Shown here in pieces: positions 41,235 through 62,856 of a stretch of DNA of 64,000 bases. This DNA is from Cytophagaceae bacterium (lineage in GTDB: Bacteria > Bacteroidota > Bacteroidia > Cytophagales > Spirosomataceae): contig JAIYBU010000085.1 in NCBI GenBank assembly GCA_027488335.1, positions 1-64,000 of the forward strand. Direction: 5' to 3'. The notes beneath the pieces were generated by a model. The model worked only from the letters and a program-made list of their open reading frames with translations, had not been told where the DNA came from and searched no databases. Position 1 is the stretch's first letter. Every line of letters starts with the position of its first letter. The position numbers and the translations under genes are program-made.

Positions 41235-42494
41235 TTATCTGATTTTCTTATCGGGTATATACCCTTTTTTTTCTATATCATTGACAAAAAATGTATCTTC
41301 TCTCCTACCATCTGGGTAGATTCTCATGGCTTTTCCATGTTTTATATTGTTTTCCACACGAACGACCAATCTGATGTTATTATTGAAAATGAAATAACCT
41401 TTATCATCATTCATAAAGCCATTTTTGTACTTACCCACATACTTATCCCCATTTTTGTAGAAAAACGAACCATTACCTTCATACTTACCATTTTTGAAGT
41501 TTCCTACATACTTTTTCTCACCATCAGCATAGAATTCTACACCTCTTCCATCCCGTTTTCCGTTTCTCCACTCTCCTTCGTACTTTTCTTCTGTTTTAGG
41601 ATTTATCATTTTTCCAAAACCATCACTACAATCTCCTTCAAAACATCCACCTTTTTTCACAACTTCATTATTGTTTTCCACATTTGTTGTGTTAGTTGCA
41701 ATAATATCTGGCCTTTTACTTGATACATCCGAATTGCCCACTGAGTTATCCACTTTATCCACATTTTCTTGATTATTTGTTGGTTGTGGGTCAGTTCGAG
41801 GTGGTTGCTGTGGAGGACTTTGTGGCTGCGGAGCTTGTTGCGTTGGCTGAGACTTTGGCTGAGTAACTACACTTCCATCGCTTTTCTTGATATTTGGGTA
41901 AAGCTCTTGGGCATTATCATAACCCTTTTTTATGGCTGCTAAGCGTTTGGGCCTTGCAGGGTGAGTTCCGCCATCATAATCGGATGTTAGTTTGTTTATG
42001 GCTGCTTGTGCATCTTTTAGTGAAGCTCCCATTTGGTACATAACAAAGCCTGAAAATTCATCAGCTTCGAGTTCTTTGGCTGGGTCGCTGCCTCCTTCTA
42101 TGATTGTATGGCCTTGCAAGTGATGTCCGATTTCATGGGCTAAGATACTCAATGCTCCCCAATCTGATTTTGATAAATCATTGGCTTTTTTCATGAATGA
42201 ACCATCGTAAACTATCAATCGAGTTTGCCCTTGAATGGCCGCAAAACAGTTATCAGTATTTGGGCATTCCATGACGTAGAAGTTTCTTTTTAGTCCGCTT
42301 CTTCTTACAATTTCGTCAACGGCTTTTTCGGCTACTTCTTTTGAGCGAAAACTGAATTGACTACAAAATGCTCTTTCATTTATTTTTTGTCCGTAGTAGT
42401 TATATCCAAAAGATTTTACTCTTTCTTCTTGTGCATTAGCTAATAATACAAATGTGGATAACAATGTGGATAATGTGCATAACTTGAATTTCAT
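41235..42494 (-). CDS. Secreted M48-like zinc metalloprotease fused to MORN repeats
   Basis: 419 aa; signal peptide, LAHEIGHHLQGHTI (HExxH), Pro/Gln-rich linker, KYEGEWRNGKRDGRGVEFYADG / KYVGNFKNGKYEGNGSFFYKNG / KYVGKYKNGFMNDDKGYF MORN repeats. Confidence 0.82.
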   Translation of the reverse strand: MKFKLCTLSTLLSTFVLLANAQEERVKSFGYNYYGQKINERAFCSQFSFRSKEVAEKAVDEIVRRSGLKRNFYVMECPNTDNCFAAIQGQTRLIVYDGSFMKKANDLSKSDWGALSILAHEIGHHLQGHTIIEGGSDPAKELEADEFSGFVMYQMGASLKDAQAAINKLTSDYDGGTHPARPKRLAAIKKGYDNAQELYPNIKKSDGSVVTQPKSQPTQQAPQPQSPPQQPPRTDPQPTNNQENVDKVDNSVGNSDVSSKRPDIIATNTTNVENNNEVVKKGGCFEGDCSDGFGKMINPKTEEKYEGEWRNGKRDGRGVEFYADGEKKYVGNFKNGKYEGNGSFFYKNGDKYVGKYKNGFMNDDKGYFIFNNNIRLVVRVENNIKHGKAMRIYPDGRREDTFFVNDIEKKGYIPDKKIR

Positions 42495-42641: not shown

Positions 42642-44444
42642 TTAATTTATTGTATCGCCTCTTAAATATCTGAATCTTTTACGGGCTTCCGCTCCGAAGA
42701 TTGAACCTGGAAATTTTTGGAGAATTTCTCGGTATAATTCCATCGCTTTATCCTTTTGCTGAAAGTTTTCTTCGTAAATCTTTGCTTGCAAAAATAAGGC
42801 ATCATCGGCCAGAATATCGAAGTTATAATTTTTACGAAGTAGCTCTAAATCTTCTAATGCTTTTTCCGGCTTATTGATTTTGAGATTGGTATTTGCCCGT
42901 AACCATAAAATGTCATCCGCCAACGAATGAGATTTATACTTTTCAAAAATTTGGTCGAGTGCTGCCATTGCTTCTGAATTTCTGTTTTGGAAAAGTAGCA
43001 AATCGACTTTGGCATATTCTTTCATGGCAACTTCTGAAGTATCAAGTCCAATATTATCTTGAATCAATAAACTTAACTGCATGGCATCGTTGGCGATTTC
43101 ACGAGTAGTGGCTTTTTTCAAAATATCCAATACATCTTTTGCTAAATCAAATTCTCCGTTGTAGTAATGTAACTTTGCATTTTTGAGTTTTGCTTCTTGT
43201 CCGAGAAAATCTTCTTTCTGAGATTTTTCAACTTGTGAATAAAGTAATGTTGCTTCCCACGGCTCGTTTTTCAGTATATAAATATCACCTAAATCTAATT
43301 TACATTTATCTCTGAAAGTGTTATCAGAACCAGCAATCATGATGGCGGTTTCGAGAACAGAAATTGCCGTATCTCTTTCGTTGAGATAAAAAGCGTAGAG
43401 TTGAGCGGTATTTCTAAGAGCCTCCATTGTTTTTATATTTCGGCCTAAATCAGAAAATAAACCTTGATAGTCTTTTATCAACGAACGAATGTCAGCAATG
43501 CTCACAGGATAAGTTGTCTTTACGACTTCTTCTTTGCAGAATAAAGCATTTCGTCGGGCGTAGGCATAGTACTGTCCTTGTGGATATTCTTTCATCACAT
43601 ATTCATACATCTGAATGGCACTTTTGTAGTCTTTGTTTACCAAGGCTGTTTGGGCTAATTCAAAAACACGCTGTCCGTCTTGTCTTAAACGTCGGTCTAA
43701 TGCTCTTGTTTGAATAAAAGCCTTCGTAAACTCTTTCTGTTGGATTAAATGCCAAATTAGGATGTCAGTGTAGTACTGCTCAGTCGGGAACTTCTGTACC
43801 TTGCTGTAAAGGGCTTTTTCGAGCATATCTACTTCGGCTTCCGTTTTCAGATTATCTTGAAACGTAGCTTTTACATACTCTTGATTTCCTTCCAGCAAAC
43901 CATATTTTAGCATTTCTTCAATCATCGGTTCTTTTTGACCGTTGTAAAGAAATGCTCTGGCCATCAAGATTGCGTACTTGTTTTCGTCCTTTGCAATTTC
44001 ACGCCCTTTTTTCAATAACTGAATGACGAGTTCGGTTTTTGAATTTCGGTATAGCAAATCTTGGAGTTCGTAGATTGAGCCTTCGCTTCTTGCTGCAAGG
44101 TCAATCAAGTTCTCCATTTCTTTTTGGGCTTCCTCAAACTTCCCTGTCATTTCGAGCAAGCTCGTATAATCCGAGCGAAAGACTATTCCAGTTAGGTCAT
44201 TACTTTTTATCTGACGTTTCAAATATTTTTCAGCATCATCAAAATTTTTCAGCTTAAACAAACACTGAATATAATTTTGATGAATCAACCGAATGTTGTT
44301 TTTATCCTTCGCTATTTTTTGGAAAATATCTTTAGCCTTTTCGTACTCTCCTTGTTTAAAGTATTCATTTGCCAATTCAATGTCTTGACCTTTAGCCATG
44401 ATTTGAATTCCAAAAAATAGAATTATCAATAAATACCGTTTCAT
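42642..44444 (-). CDS. TPR-repeat protein
   Basis: 600 aa; signal peptide; YFKQGEYEKAKDIFQKIAK, FLQAKIYEENFQQKDKAMELYREILQKFPGSIFGAEARKRFRYLRGD. Confidence 0.82.
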   Translation of the reverse strand: MKRYLLIILFFGIQIMAKGQDIELANEYFKQGEYEKAKDIFQKIAKDKNNIRLIHQNYIQCLFKLKNFDDAEKYLKRQIKSNDLTGIVFRSDYTSLLEMTGKFEEAQKEMENLIDLAARSEGSIYELQDLLYRNSKTELVIQLLKKGREIAKDENKYAILMARAFLYNGQKEPMIEEMLKYGLLEGNQEYVKATFQDNLKTEAEVDMLEKALYSKVQKFPTEQYYTDILIWHLIQQKEFTKAFIQTRALDRRLRQDGQRVFELAQTALVNKDYKSAIQMYEYVMKEYPQGQYYAYARRNALFCKEEVVKTTYPVSIADIRSLIKDYQGLFSDLGRNIKTMEALRNTAQLYAFYLNERDTAISVLETAIMIAGSDNTFRDKCKLDLGDIYILKNEPWEATLLYSQVEKSQKEDFLGQEAKLKNAKLHYYNGEFDLAKDVLDILKKATTREIANDAMQLSLLIQDNIGLDTSEVAMKEYAKVDLLLFQNRNSEAMAALDQIFEKYKSHSLADDILWLRANTNLKINKPEKALEDLELLRKNYNFDILADDALFLQAKIYEENFQQKDKAMELYREILQKFPGSIFGAEARKRFRYLRGDTIN

Positions 44445-44921
44445 AGTTTCCTAAAAAAAAGAAATAAAATATATTTTTAAATTACTGTTTTAAGTTATTA
44501 CTGCTGTGGATATGTGAATAAACTTTGTTTGTTGACAACACTTTAAATGTGCTTGTATATAATTAATAGCTTTGTCCACAGCTTTATTACTTTAATTAAC
44601 ACTTATATTATTGATTATCAATTCTAATACCATTTATTGACAATGCCCTTAAATATTTTTTGTTTATTATTATATTTCATTTCCACATAGTGTGTCCACG
44701 TTAATCAACATGATGTGAATTGAGGATAAACCATGAGTTTTATTCGTTTTCCACTTCTTTTGATTTCTGTCCACGGTTTATAATAATTACCCACAACGCT
44801 TTCAACGACTCAATTCACATTATTGGTATTCAATCCACATCTTTGTCCACAAAATTTCTTGGATATTTTTTATTTTGAATTGACCTTTTCAGTTCTTCGC
44901 GAAATTATATTGATTATATTC
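44445..44921. other. Candidate chromosomal replication origin: AT-rich non-coding region with a DnaA-box-like cluster
   Basis: TGTGGATAT 44505-44513, TGTGAATAA 44513-44521, TTGTCCACA 44572-44580, GTGTCCACG 44692-44700, TGAGGATAA 44721-44729, TTACCCACA 44787-44795, CAATCCACA 44831-44839, TTGTCCACA 44843-44851; mnmG ~1.7 kb away; parS-like sites at 48.5 kb. Confidence 0.5.
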
Positions 44922-46532
44922 TTATTTCACAACTATTCCACGTACCTCAAAATTGGCTTTTAGTCTGATTGGTTCGGCATAAAACGTCACTTCTTCTGGT
45001 AAAATATTCTTTTCTACATTGCCATAATCCCAATATCCGTTTTCATTTTTGTCATTTATTGTTCGTAATAGATATATCCCAGGTTTTATATTTTGAAACA
45101 AAAACTTGTCTCTGGTTTTTTGTTCGGCTACGACTTCATATTTATCATTGATAATCTGAATGATTTTGCTGGTTTTCTTCTCCTCAAAGTTTCCTTCAAT
45201 CAATCCATAATTTTCTGATTTTAAGATTGGGTATTTTAAATCTTGTTTATCACTTGAATCTCCTTTGATGTTTATGAATACTCCCCTACTCATTTCAATC
45301 TTTACTTCTCGCTCTGAATTTATCTCTTTTGTGATTATTAACTTTGTTTTGGATTTATTCCACGTGAAGTTGTTGGTTTCAAGTTTCTCCTCTCTGATGG
45401 TATCTGACAGAATCTTAAATAGGCTCTTATTAAAGCTAAGAATGGGCGTATCGAAACTTATTTCGTATTTGAAGTTTTTATCTACTACTTCCCCAACTTT
45501 AGGTTTCATGTTTAATGTTAAATATGCTCTTTTTTCTTTTTTCTTTTTTTCTGGTTCTCTGAATTTTATCTTCTGTAAATAAGTCAAAGTATTTCCACTT
45601 GAATCAGTCACAGTAATATTTACTTTTAAAGTATCTGTTCGTTGGGTTGAATTATAAAATTTTAATTCTTTGTCTTCTCCGTAATAAGGAATACTATCGT
45701 TTTTGTTTTCAAACTTTACTTCAAACGATTTTATATTCTTATCATACAATATAGTGTAGTCTTCTGCCCGAGGTAGTACTTTTTGGCTTTTTGGTTTTTC
45801 GTTATTTGCATTTGCCAATAATAAATCAATTCCACCAAAGTTTTTATCTAAATTAATTGTGTCATTTCTGAATCCGATGGCTTCGGTTTTTGTATCATAT
45901 TTCAGGTTACTATTTTTATCCATAAAAGCATAAATACGATACTTACCACTTTTAATATTTTCAAACTGATAATTGCCACTCGAATCAGTTTTTATGAAAT
46001 AATCAGGTTTTGTTTTTTTGAGGTCTAATGAATCTTGAAGTTTATATAGTGCAACATGTGCTTCTAAAACTGGTTGATTAGTGAGTAAGCCTTTTACGTT
46101 TCCACTAATTTTTAATGAATCAATCTGATTGCCTGTACTAAAAACTAATTTCAGATTTCTTGATTCGTTTCTTTCATTCAAGTCTTTTATTCCTTTTCTG
46201 AAATTTAGCGTATAAGTTGTACTATCTTTAAATGCTTTATCAAATTTCAGAATTACTGTATTTGATTTTGAACGAATATCATACGTGCCTTCTGCTTCTG
46301 GAATTATCAAAAGCTCTTGTCTCAAACTTGTAACATCCACTAATTCATCAAATTCTAAACTTATTGTTTTTTCTTTGAAGTTTTTTTGCTCAGCTTTTGG
46401 AGTTGAGTTTATGAGTTTAGGTGCAATTTCATCCCTCTTTCCTCCTGTTGGTGGAACAAATTGTGCACAACTTATTAATAACTTACAACCAGTAATCAGA
46501 ATTACGGTTTTTAATAAACTACTTTTAATCAT
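44922..46532 (-). CDS. Lipoprotein with N-terminal SbsA-type Ig-like domain
   Basis: 536 aa; lipobox LLISCAQFVPPTGGKRDEIAPKLINSTP, KTISLEFDELVDVTSL, Cna-B-like GNYQFENIKSGKYRIYAFMDKNSNLKYD. Confidence 0.72.
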   Translation of the reverse strand: MIKSSLLKTVILITGCKLLISCAQFVPPTGGKRDEIAPKLINSTPKAEQKNFKEKTISLEFDELVDVTSLRQELLIIPEAEGTYDIRSKSNTVILKFDKAFKDSTTYTLNFRKGIKDLNERNESRNLKLVFSTGNQIDSLKISGNVKGLLTNQPVLEAHVALYKLQDSLDLKKTKPDYFIKTDSSGNYQFENIKSGKYRIYAFMDKNSNLKYDTKTEAIGFRNDTINLDKNFGGIDLLLANANNEKPKSQKVLPRAEDYTILYDKNIKSFEVKFENKNDSIPYYGEDKELKFYNSTQRTDTLKVNITVTDSSGNTLTYLQKIKFREPEKKKKEKRAYLTLNMKPKVGEVVDKNFKYEISFDTPILSFNKSLFKILSDTIREEKLETNNFTWNKSKTKLIITKEINSEREVKIEMSRGVFINIKGDSSDKQDLKYPILKSENYGLIEGNFEEKKTSKIIQIINDKYEVVAEQKTRDKFLFQNIKPGIYLLRTINDKNENGYWDYGNVEKNILPEEVTFYAEPIRLKANFEVRGIVVK

Positions 46533-46610: not shown

Positions 46611-48473
46611 TTATCTTCCGAGATGTATCATTATCACTGCAATATCGGCTGGCGAAACTCCACTTATTCTTGATGCTTGTCCGAGTGTTTGTGGTTTTAT
46701 CTTTTTTAATTTTTGTCTTGCTTCGATAGATATTGATAATAATTTTTCGTAATCGAAGTTTGGATTAATATTTAAGTCTTCTAAACGAGACATTTTTTCT
46801 GCCATCAACAACTCCTTCTCAATATAGCTTTCGTACTTAACATGTATTACTGCTTGTTCGATTACTTCATCGTCATACCGACTAAGAAATTCTTTCATAT
46901 CATTATCCAATGAACGAATGTTTTCTATTTCTATTTCAGGGCGTTTCAGAATACTATAAAAAGAAGACTTCTCTCTTAAAGATGACGAACCTATTTGTTC
47001 GAGGTAATTATTGGCGTTATCGGGGGTAATCTTTCTGACTTTAATTTCCTCTACGATTTTTCCAGATTCATTTTTTTTGTAATTCATTCTTTCTAAACGA
47101 GTCTCAGAAGCTAAACCTAAATCATATCCTTTTTGAGTCAGGCGAATATCTGCATTATCTTGTCTTAATAAAGTTCTGAACTCTGCTCTTGATGTAAACA
47201 TTCTATAAGGCTCATCTGTGCCTTTATTTACTAAGTCATCTATTAATACTCCGATGTATGCTTCGTTTCTTTTGAGAACAAAGTCTCCCTTTTCGTGTAC
47301 TTTATTGTGGGCGTTAATTCCTGCCATCAATCCTTGACATGCTGCTTCTTCATATCCTGTCGTTCCATTGATTTGTCCTGCAAAATATAAGTTTTCAATC
47401 AAGTGAGTTTCAAGCGTAAGTTTTAATTGTGTTGGCGGAAAGAAATCATATTCGATTGCATAACCTGGTCTGAACATTTTTACATTTTCAAAACCTTTTA
47501 TTTTCGTTAATGCCTCGTATTGTATTTCTTCGGGTAATGATGTAGAAAAACCATTAATATACATCTCTACTGTATTCCATCCTTCAGGTTCTACAAATAT
47601 TTGGTGATGGTCTTTATCTGCAAACCTATTTATTTTATCTTCTACTGAAGGACAATACCTTGGTCCAAGACCTTTTATTCTTCCGCTAAACATTGGTGAT
47701 TTATCAAAGCCTTTTCTAAGTACTTCGTGAACTTTTTCGTTCGTATATGTTACGTAACAGCTTCGTTGTTTGGTTAGTCTTGGTGTATCCGTGTACGAGA
47801 ATTTTTCTGGTTTTTCATCGCCTTTTTGCTCTTCCATTAAATCCCAGTTTAATGAACGACCATCAATTCGTGGAGGCGTTCCTGTTTTCATACGGCCAGA
47901 TTCAAAGCCTAATTCAATTAATTGTTCCGTAATTCCATGAGCAGCTTTTTCACCTGTTCTACCACCACCGAAGTTTTTCTCTCCTATATGAATCTTTCCA
48001 TTCAAAAATGTTCCATTCGTTAATACAACCGATTTTCCTTTAATTTCGATACCCATCCCTGTACGAACGCCCACTACCCTATTATCTTTTATAACTAAAC
48101 CCTCAATCATTTCTTGCCAAAAGTCAAGGTTCGGGATGTTTTCCATTGTATCTCGCCATTCTTGAGCAAACATCATTCTATCGCTCTGACACCTTGGACT
48201 CCACATTGCTGGACCTTTGGAGCGATTAAGCATTCTAAATTGAATCATTGTTTTATCACTAATAATTCCTGATTGACCACCTAAAGCGTCTATTTCACGA
48301 ATTATTTGTCCTTTAGCTACACCTCCCATTGCTGGGTTGCACGACATTTGTGCAATTGTGTGCATATTCATTGTGACTAATAAAACTGATGAACCCATAT
48401 TAGCTGCCGCAGATGCTGCTTCGCATCCTGCGTGCCCTGCTCCAACTACTATTACATCGTATTCTTTAAACAT
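46611..48473 (-). CDS. mnmG: tRNA uridine-5-carboxymethylaminomethyl modification enzyme MnmG (GidA)
   Basis: 620 aa; DVIVVGAGHAGCEAASAAANMGSSVLL, SCNPAMGGVAKG, GTFLNGKIHIGEKNFGGGR, GQINGTTGYEEAACQG. Confidence 0.97.
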   Translation of the reverse strand: MFKEYDVIVVGAGHAGCEAASAAANMGSSVLLVTMNMHTIAQMSCNPAMGGVAKGQIIREIDALGGQSGIISDKTMIQFRMLNRSKGPAMWSPRCQSDRMMFAQEWRDTMENIPNLDFWQEMIEGLVIKDNRVVGVRTGMGIEIKGKSVVLTNGTFLNGKIHIGEKNFGGGRTGEKAAHGITEQLIELGFESGRMKTGTPPRIDGRSLNWDLMEEQKGDEKPEKFSYTDTPRLTKQRSCYVTYTNEKVHEVLRKGFDKSPMFSGRIKGLGPRYCPSVEDKINRFADKDHHQIFVEPEGWNTVEMYINGFSTSLPEEIQYEALTKIKGFENVKMFRPGYAIEYDFFPPTQLKLTLETHLIENLYFAGQINGTTGYEEAACQGLMAGINAHNKVHEKGDFVLKRNEAYIGVLIDDLVNKGTDEPYRMFTSRAEFRTLLRQDNADIRLTQKGYDLGLASETRLERMNYKKNESGKIVEEIKVRKITPDNANNYLEQIGSSSLREKSSFYSILKRPEIEIENIRSLDNDMKEFLSRYDDEVIEQAVIHVKYESYIEKELLMAEKMSRLEDLNINPNFDYEKLLSISIEARQKLKKIKPQTLGQASRISGVSPADIAVIMIHLGR

Positions 48474-48487
48474 TGCTTTTATATTTA

Positions 48488-48544
48488 TGTTTCCACGTGA
48501 AACGTTTGTGTTTTTATTGATTACCGTGTTTCACGTGGAACGTG
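48488..48544. promoter_or_regulatory. Pair of parS-like CACGTG-centred palindromes upstream of mnmG
   Basis: gtttcCACGTGaaacg (48489-48504) and tgtttCACGTGgaacg (48527-48542) versus parS TGTTNCACGTGNAACA. Confidence 0.6.
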
Positions 48545-61321: not shown

Positions 61322-61511
61322 AAAATACTTTTTTGACCGTTAAGTAAATATTTTTTTAATTTTAATTGTACAGGAAATGCAAAGATAAAATTTTTGTGTT
61401 CATTTGTATTTTATGAAAATAAATGCTGATTATCAATACAATCATTTTGTAAATCAACTTTTATTTTATACCCAAGTAATCATTCTCTTAACAATTAAAC
61501 CATTTGTTCGT

Positions 61512-62135
61512 ATGAAAAAATTAATCCTATTCCTTTCTGCAATTGTAGTGTTAGCCTCTTGCCAAAAGAAAGAATATGCTTCTTTCCAAAAGAGTAGCAC
61601 ACCCACTTATACAGTGGTTAAAAAACAAGTAGTAGCAGCTCAACCATCAATGGATGTTGCCATTGTCGAACAAGCAACCGCTTCGATTGTCGCCCCAACA
61701 GAAGTGACATTAGCAGCTGACAATTCAGTAACAGTATCCTCTTTGAATACTGAAACTACAACAGTTCCTGCAGTAACAGAAAGCCAAGTAATGACTTTCA
61801 ACGAGCAAGCAGTAAATGCAGAATTTGAAAAATTGAATAAGTTAGAGCAATATGTTGCTGCTCACGAAGGAGTAACTATTGAGGATGTAAAAGAAACAGC
61901 ACTTACAGAAGACCTAAAATTAGATACAAATGTAACTAATGCAGTCGTAGCTGGAGAATTACCATTGGGTATTCCTGCTTTCTGGTGGGGTTGTGTACTT
62001 GGCTTACTTGGAGTATTAGCAGTTTACTTAATCACTGATAAAGACAAAGAGCAAACTAAAAAAGCATTATATGGTTGTTTAGCATGGACTGTTCTTTGGG
62101 CAGTTTACTACTTTGTAGTATTAGCTTCATTCTAA
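61512..62135 (+). CDS. Lipoprotein-like membrane-anchored protein, paralog 1
   Basis: Start MKKLILFLSAIVVLASCQKKEYASFQKS (lipobox); C-terminal ELPLGIPAFWWGCVLGLLGVLAVYLITDKDKEQTKKALYGCLAW. Confidence 0.7.
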   Translation: MKKLILFLSAIVVLASCQKKEYASFQKSSTPTYTVVKKQVVAAQPSMDVAIVEQATASIVAPTEVTLAADNSVTVSSLNTETTTVPAVTESQVMTFNEQAVNAEFEKLNKLEQYVAAHEGVTIEDVKETALTEDLKLDTNVTNAVVAGELPLGIPAFWWGCVLGLLGVLAVYLITDKDKEQTKKALYGCLAWTVLWAVYYFVVLASF

Positions 62136-62220: not shown

Positions 62221-62856
62221 ATGAAATCGACAATTATTTCTACAATTGCATTGGTTTTAGCACTTACTTCTTGTCATCAAAAGCAATTTGCTTATGTACA
62301 GAAAGGTAAAGTAGAAAACTATGAGTCTTCGAGAATAGTAATCCAACGCCAAGTTTCTAATCAGGCCAAGAATGAAATAATAGGCACAACAACTAATGAT
62401 ATTACTGAAACAAATCAACTGACTGCTTCGGAAGTGTTGACAAAAAATGTTGAAATATCGTCATTGAATAATAATATTTCGGAAAATGAAGTTTTAGTAT
62501 ATAACCAAGAAAACATAAATACCACTTTCGAAAAACTTAATAAAGTTGAGGCATTTGTTGAGCAAAATACTGAAGCAAGTTTTGAAACAATAAAAAATAC
62601 AGACCTATTAAAGGATATTGAACTTGACACAAATACTTTAGACAATGTGACAAAAGATACGGAGTTACCTTTAAATATTCCAGCCTTTTGGTGGGGATGT
62701 TTCTTAGGGGGATTAGGTATCTTACTTGTCTATGTAATTACTGAAGATAAAGAACAAACCAAAAAAGCTCTCTATGGATGTTTGACTGCTGGTGGAGTAG
62801 TGGCGGTTATTTACATTGTCTTGATTGCAATCGGATTGAGTGCAGGAACATTTTAA
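62221..62856 (+). CDS. Lipoprotein-like membrane-anchored protein, paralog 2
   Basis: LALTSCHQKQFAYVQKG lipobox; C-terminal ELPLNIPAFWWGCFLGGLGILLVYVITEDKEQTKKALYGCL nearly identical to paralog 1. Confidence 0.7.
   Translation: MKSTIISTIALVLALTSCHQKQFAYVQKGKVENYESSRIVIQRQVSNQAKNEIIGTTTNDITETNQLTASEVLTKNVEISSLNNNISENEVLVYNQENINTTFEKLNKVEAFVEQNTEASFETIKNTDLLKDIELDTNTLDNVTKDTELPLNIPAFWWGCFLGGLGILLVYVITEDKEQTKKALYGCLTAGGVVAVIYIVLIAIGLSAGTF

Follow-up and report, generated by a model that had tools for sequence, protein, structure and literature searches.

The locus described here raises the question of whether a gene-free stretch near mnmG, on a contig without dnaA, can be the place at which replication of the chromosome begins. 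The window, by which we mean the whole stretch of 64,000 nucleotides that was analysed, comprises bases 1-64000 of a 69,835-bp contig from a 5.01-Mb draft genome of 240 contigs, and protein identities of up to 88%, together with the named hits, place its host, as far as sequence can tell, either within Emticicia or beside that genus in the family Spirosomataceae. A preliminary description of the window had read the gap at 44445-44921 as a candidate replication origin. We put at about 90% the probability that this gap forms the core of oriC on the chromosome of an Emticicia-like member of the Spirosomataceae, a judgement reached by computation, from the box cluster, the coarse skew-switch position, the unlinked dnaA, the unique parS, conservation and instability; the earlier reading is thus supported, above all by coarse skew, by conservation and by the sole exact parS lying beside mnmG.

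Results

The gap is 477 bp long, is free of genes and is 73.4% AT, and it lies between two genes on the minus strand, a TPR-repeat gene (42642-44444) and a gene for an Ig-like (Big_5) lipoprotein (44922-46532), all of which agrees with the preliminary description: a gap with no credible ORF, AT-rich, and with both flanking genes on the minus strand. The same description had counted about eight 9-mers resembling the DnaA box; the cluster is real, but the count is six when at most one mismatch from TTATCCACA is allowed (44505, 44513 and 44721 on the minus strand; 44572, 44787 and 44843 on the plus strand). With up to two mismatches it becomes 13, and perfect boxes number zero in the window's own gap. 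Six boxes in this non-coding region are far above chance, as 1000 Markov sequences matched to the composition of the gap gave a mean of 0.23 and a maximum of three, with none reaching six. As the densest 500 bp of the window for boxes, the gap ties with a cluster at 41.3-41.8 kb. A search of Rfam found no structured RNA in the region.

Two of the minus-strand boxes (at 44513 and 44505) stand in tandem at 44505-44521 as TTATTCACATATCCACA, followed on that strand by a G and a TAATAA stretch, and together these make up a near-fixed element. The plus-strand box TTGTCCACA at 44572-44580 keeps its position in the Emticicia alignment, and further along the same strand (44747-44851) runs an array of boxes in one direction, with TTTTCCACT at 44747, TTACCCACA at 44787, CAATCCACA at 44831 and TTGTCCACA again at 44843; the last pair of the array (44831 and 44843), 12 bp apart, recurs across many genera. 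The conserved block GTGTCCACGTTAAT...TGTGAATTGAGGATAA at 44685-44730 includes the reverse box TTATCCTCA at 44721-44729. Another block, at 44583-44643 (TTAATTAACACTTATATTATTGATTATCAATTC...), is AT-rich and highly conserved, with 65-85% invariant columns, and is possibly a bending or protein site. This stretch and that at 44859-44885 (with TTGATTATCAA and TTGGATATTTTTTATTTT) are AT-rich, without DnaA boxes and nearly invariant in Emticicia.

Judged by nearest-neighbour stability, no 50-mer in the 64-kb window is less stable than that at 44451-44500, which lies within the gap and directly adjoins the tandem boxes. This AT-rich tract is probably the DNA unwinding element, and is likely to be the unwinding site in place of 44648-44680, the stretch suggested earlier, which is not AT-only, belongs to the most poorly conserved parts of the gap and was rejected on both stability and conservation. 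Conserved tandem DnaA boxes beside an unwinding tract are one of the marks of a basal unwinding system (BUS), and these are present at 44505-44521. The other mark, at least three DnaA-trios (3'-NAN-5') no more than 16 bp from a box, is lacking in the window, which has two; at least three are found at 35 of 51 loci, yet this pass rate is no better than that of shuffled AT-rich sequence. Because the window has only two trios, and because its relatives do no better than shuffles, we rejected strict BUS membership and make no claim to it.

In seven Emticicia genomes the gap aligned almost without indels, at 70-84% identity to the window; the boxes kept fixed places, and blocks of the alignment had 75-85% of their columns invariant. 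The position of the gap and many of its boxes are kept in Dyadobacter, Runella, Arcicella, Flectobacillus, Pseudarcicella, Rhodocytophaga, Fibrella, Arundinibacter and others, and the tandem-box element, TTATnCACATATCCACAG followed by a TA-rich stretch, is found in most of these genera and in most origin-bearing loci, across families. Conservation of the cluster, which had been put forward as a check, was therefore found at the same position in close and distant relatives alike. The TPR-repeat gene is the most constant neighbour of the origin; the Ig-like lipoprotein gene is a usual, not an obligatory one. Beside the Ig-like gene of Spirosoma and Fibrisoma we found no boxes, and in genome G015 this gene lies 2.3 Mb from the origin-like boxes (4.32 Mb vs 6.62 Mb), which stand with the tandem element upstream of the TPR gene, between it and mnmG. 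The boxes thus go with the TPR gene and mnmG, not with the Ig-like gene. Not every member of the order shows this arrangement: in G025, G026, G027 and G035, from some more distant families, no boxes were found upstream of the TPR gene.

A further nine boxes, absent from the preliminary description, lie 2.2-3.3 kb to the left of the core, inside a minus-strand gene (41235-42494) encoding an M48 peptidase with MORN repeats. Six of them are on the plus strand at 41350-41763 (41350, 41431, 41443, 41674, 41746 and 41755); the other three, on the minus strand at 42453-42482, form TTATGCACA-TTATCCACA-TTATCCACA with 9/12-bp spacing at the start of the gene. Comparison of these sequences suggests, as the parsimonious reading, that the distal cluster and the core are the two parts of a bipartite origin, the DNA looping over the TPR gene; a second box cluster within a few kb that is under selection is found in Emticicia, and in part in Arcicella and Flectobacillus. 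We see evenly balanced odds that this is a bipartite origin of a new kind, in which the second lobe is held at the DNA level within the M48/MORN coding sequence beyond the TPR gene, has outlived that gene in one species, and is separated from the core by a spacer other than dnaA.

Against this stands the explanation that the distal boxes arise as a by-product of the protein's sequence, or serve DnaA in controlling the M48/MORN gene. In our view this has a considerable, though minority, chance of being right; the cluster may be a DnaA-regulated or titrating site. L-S-T and V-D-N repeats do favour the 9-mer, and synonymous shuffles of the M48/MORN gene already yield 2-3.6 boxes. For a mere by-product, however, the observed box count was reached too rarely, in 0-1% of shuffles for all but one of the eight Emticicia genes, the exception being that of G008 (10%), and codons for shared amino acids are identical in 89% of cases inside boxes vs 64% outside, an odds ratio of 4.6, the p-value of which (7e-11) overstates the significance because the pairs are not independent. 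Also against a by-product is Emticicia sp. 21SJ11W-3 (G003), in which tblastn found no trace of the M48/MORN gene and which yet keeps four distal boxes, at spacings of 9, 12 and 82 bp vs 9, 12 and 84 bp in E. agri.

In the same genome (locus L081) these boxes sit in a 730-bp gap, 2416-3146 bases after the stop codon of the Ig-like gene. The TPR gene of Flectobacillus longus (L091) itself holds eight DnaA boxes, against a synonymous-shuffle mean of 1.8 and maximum of 5, so that in this species additional boxes may be scattered through the entire region.

The gene mnmG/gidA is a classical neighbour of oriC, and the proximity to the gap of both mnmG and parS, claimed from the letters alone, was borne out. 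mnmG is found at 46611-48473 on the minus strand, and upstream of it on the plus strand are an exact parS, GTTTCACGTGGAAC, at 48528-48541, which is the sole exact copy in the genome, and a parS-like site with one mismatch at 48490-48503. Searches of whole genomes placed the exact consensus only beside mnmG in G000, G003, G008 and G028, with one or two sites each, and found no exact parS in G012, G014 and G015; a search with two mismatches allowed was too noisy. A second parS-like site, TTTTCCACGTGAAACA, occurs in four congeners (G001:C23:106060, G002:C29:108347, G004:C6:227413 and G011:C61:111640), and in three of the four shares a contig with the origin, about 32-127 kb away.

As had been stated before, dnaA is outside the window; it is on a separate 7.1-kb contig of the host's own draft genome, and in five relatives it is 1.7-2.8 Mb from the locus. 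Since skew cannot be drawn from the draft genome, we sampled relatives whose chromosome is a single, near-complete contig. On the complete 5.18-Mb chromosome of Emticicia sp. 21SJ11W-3, dnaA lies at 3.394 Mb and the locus at 5.165 Mb; positive GC skew prevails over the first 2.6 Mb, negative skew over the remainder. In G008 the locus is at 1.925 Mb, dnaA is at 0.5 kb, and the skew becomes positive soon after the locus. When a model of one origin and one terminus was fitted to 20 samples per chromosome (G003, G008, G012, G014 and G028), placing the origin at the locus cost 0-1.15 log-likelihood units, and placing it at dnaA cost 5.3-13.5 units or was impossible under the model. The coarse chromosome-wide switch of GC skew thus fits the locus in five relatives, localised by this sampling only to some hundred kilobases, and wider still in G028. 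The use of dnaA as landmark of the origin was rejected, both because the skew excludes it and because none of 14 dnaA loci has a box cluster. In G003 the gap region, with eight boxes per 600 bp against a mean of 0.16, is the densest box cluster of the surrounding 440 kb and of all other samples; in G008 it has four per 600 bp, tied with three other places in the surrounding 420 kb.

The main evidence against an oriC in the gap is an offset in the fine skew, computed continuously over 420-440 kb around the locus in G003 and G008. In both genomes the minimum of cumulative GC skew falls to the right of the gap, 13 kb away in G003 and 15 kb in G008. With gene strand removed, a model of third codon positions also shifts the switch to the right, by 7 kb in G003, with an interval of -18 to +32 kb, and by 8.4 kb in G008, where the interval is +7 to +11 kb and the gap is disfavoured by 9.6 log-likelihood units. 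The GC-skew check proposed by the preliminary description therefore came out divided, with a coarse switch that fits the locus and a fine minimum that is 7-15 kb off. Together with plus-strand genes being common from about +15 kb, these positions would suit a true origin 7-15 kb to the right (about 52-60 kb of the window), near the switch from minus-strand to plus-strand genes, the gap then being a nearby DnaA-binding regulatory site. We regard this as improbable: neither G003 nor G008 has a box cluster at the fine-skew switch positions, parS and the conserved box array are on the side of the gap, and skew minima are often several kb off through gene strand and local composition. The offset in these two genomes may well be such a bias, produced by the run of minus-strand genes and by local composition.

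There is a very slight chance that the boxes are no origin but a site of DnaA titration or of regulation, either resembling datA or DARS or giving DnaA control of the TPR gene. Titration and reactivation of DnaA by clusters of boxes away from origins are established for datA and DARS of E. coli, but this locus lies where the coarse skew of five genomes switches, has the only exact parS close by, the mnmG neighbourhood and an adjoining unwinding tract, and meets no competing cluster at dnaA loci.

Discussion

We propose that the gap at 44445-44921 acts as the core of oriC, and from its computed features we infer DnaA binding, melting, helicase loading and looping as follows. DnaA, encoded far away, would fill the directional array at 44572-44851 and the tandem boxes at 44505-44521, and a DnaA filament would grow from the tandem boxes into the unstable AT tract at 44451-44500 and melt it, so that the helicase could be loaded there. 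The distal boxes at 41350-41763 and 42453-42482 would probably add DnaA by means of a DNA loop over the TPR gene. ParB on the parS sites beside mnmG (48490-48541) would then segregate the new origins.

The core is not new in kind, because an oriC distant from dnaA is already known in Bacteroidota and because mnmG is a classical neighbour. Such a distance is common in this phylum, as was stated, citing DoriC, for Prevotella intermedia (PMC4755523). Like the predicted oriC of P. intermedia and of other Bacteroidota, the gap is an intergenic box cluster at a GC-skew switch far from dnaA (PMC4755523); unlike that of P. intermedia, it has as its neighbours the TPR gene, the Ig-like lipoprotein gene, mnmG and parS, as well as a distal cluster. 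With the oriC of Bacillus subtilis, whose incC unwinding region has a BUS, it shares a box array and a tandem pair directly beside an AT-rich unwinding tract, and also distal boxes, which in B. subtilis are thought to work by looping (PMC6669920, PMC8287927). In the unwinding region of B. subtilis DnaA is guided by the box pair to the single-strand motifs next to it (PMC6669920, PMC8287927), whereas by the published rule our window has no more than two trio motifs, and in the Emticicia-like locus dnaA is neither in between nor nearby.

The bipartite oriC of Helicobacter pylori (oriC1-dnaA-oriC2) similarly has two box clusters one gene apart, one of them beside the unwinding element (PMC5043019, PMC8235120), but here the spacer is the TPR gene and the second cluster is inside the M48/MORN coding sequence. 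We found no description in the literature of a distal origin lobe inside a coding gene, nor, in a literature search that did not extend to the DoriC entries for these genera, a paper naming Emticicia together with a replication origin. The distal cluster allows a direct test of whether box lobes are kept inside protein genes and work with a core origin.

For the Spirosomataceae and nearby families (Emticicia, Dyadobacter, Runella, Arcicella and relatives) the locus offers a well-marked origin, and the TPR gene, mnmG and parS are the landmarks by which to locate it in draft genomes; dnaA is the usual landmark, but here the wrong one. Origin plasmids for these environmental bacteria could be designed. 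Elsewhere in the window, at 61404-62135 and 62221-62856, are two neighbouring and similar genes for small lipoproteins, an apparent tandem duplication.
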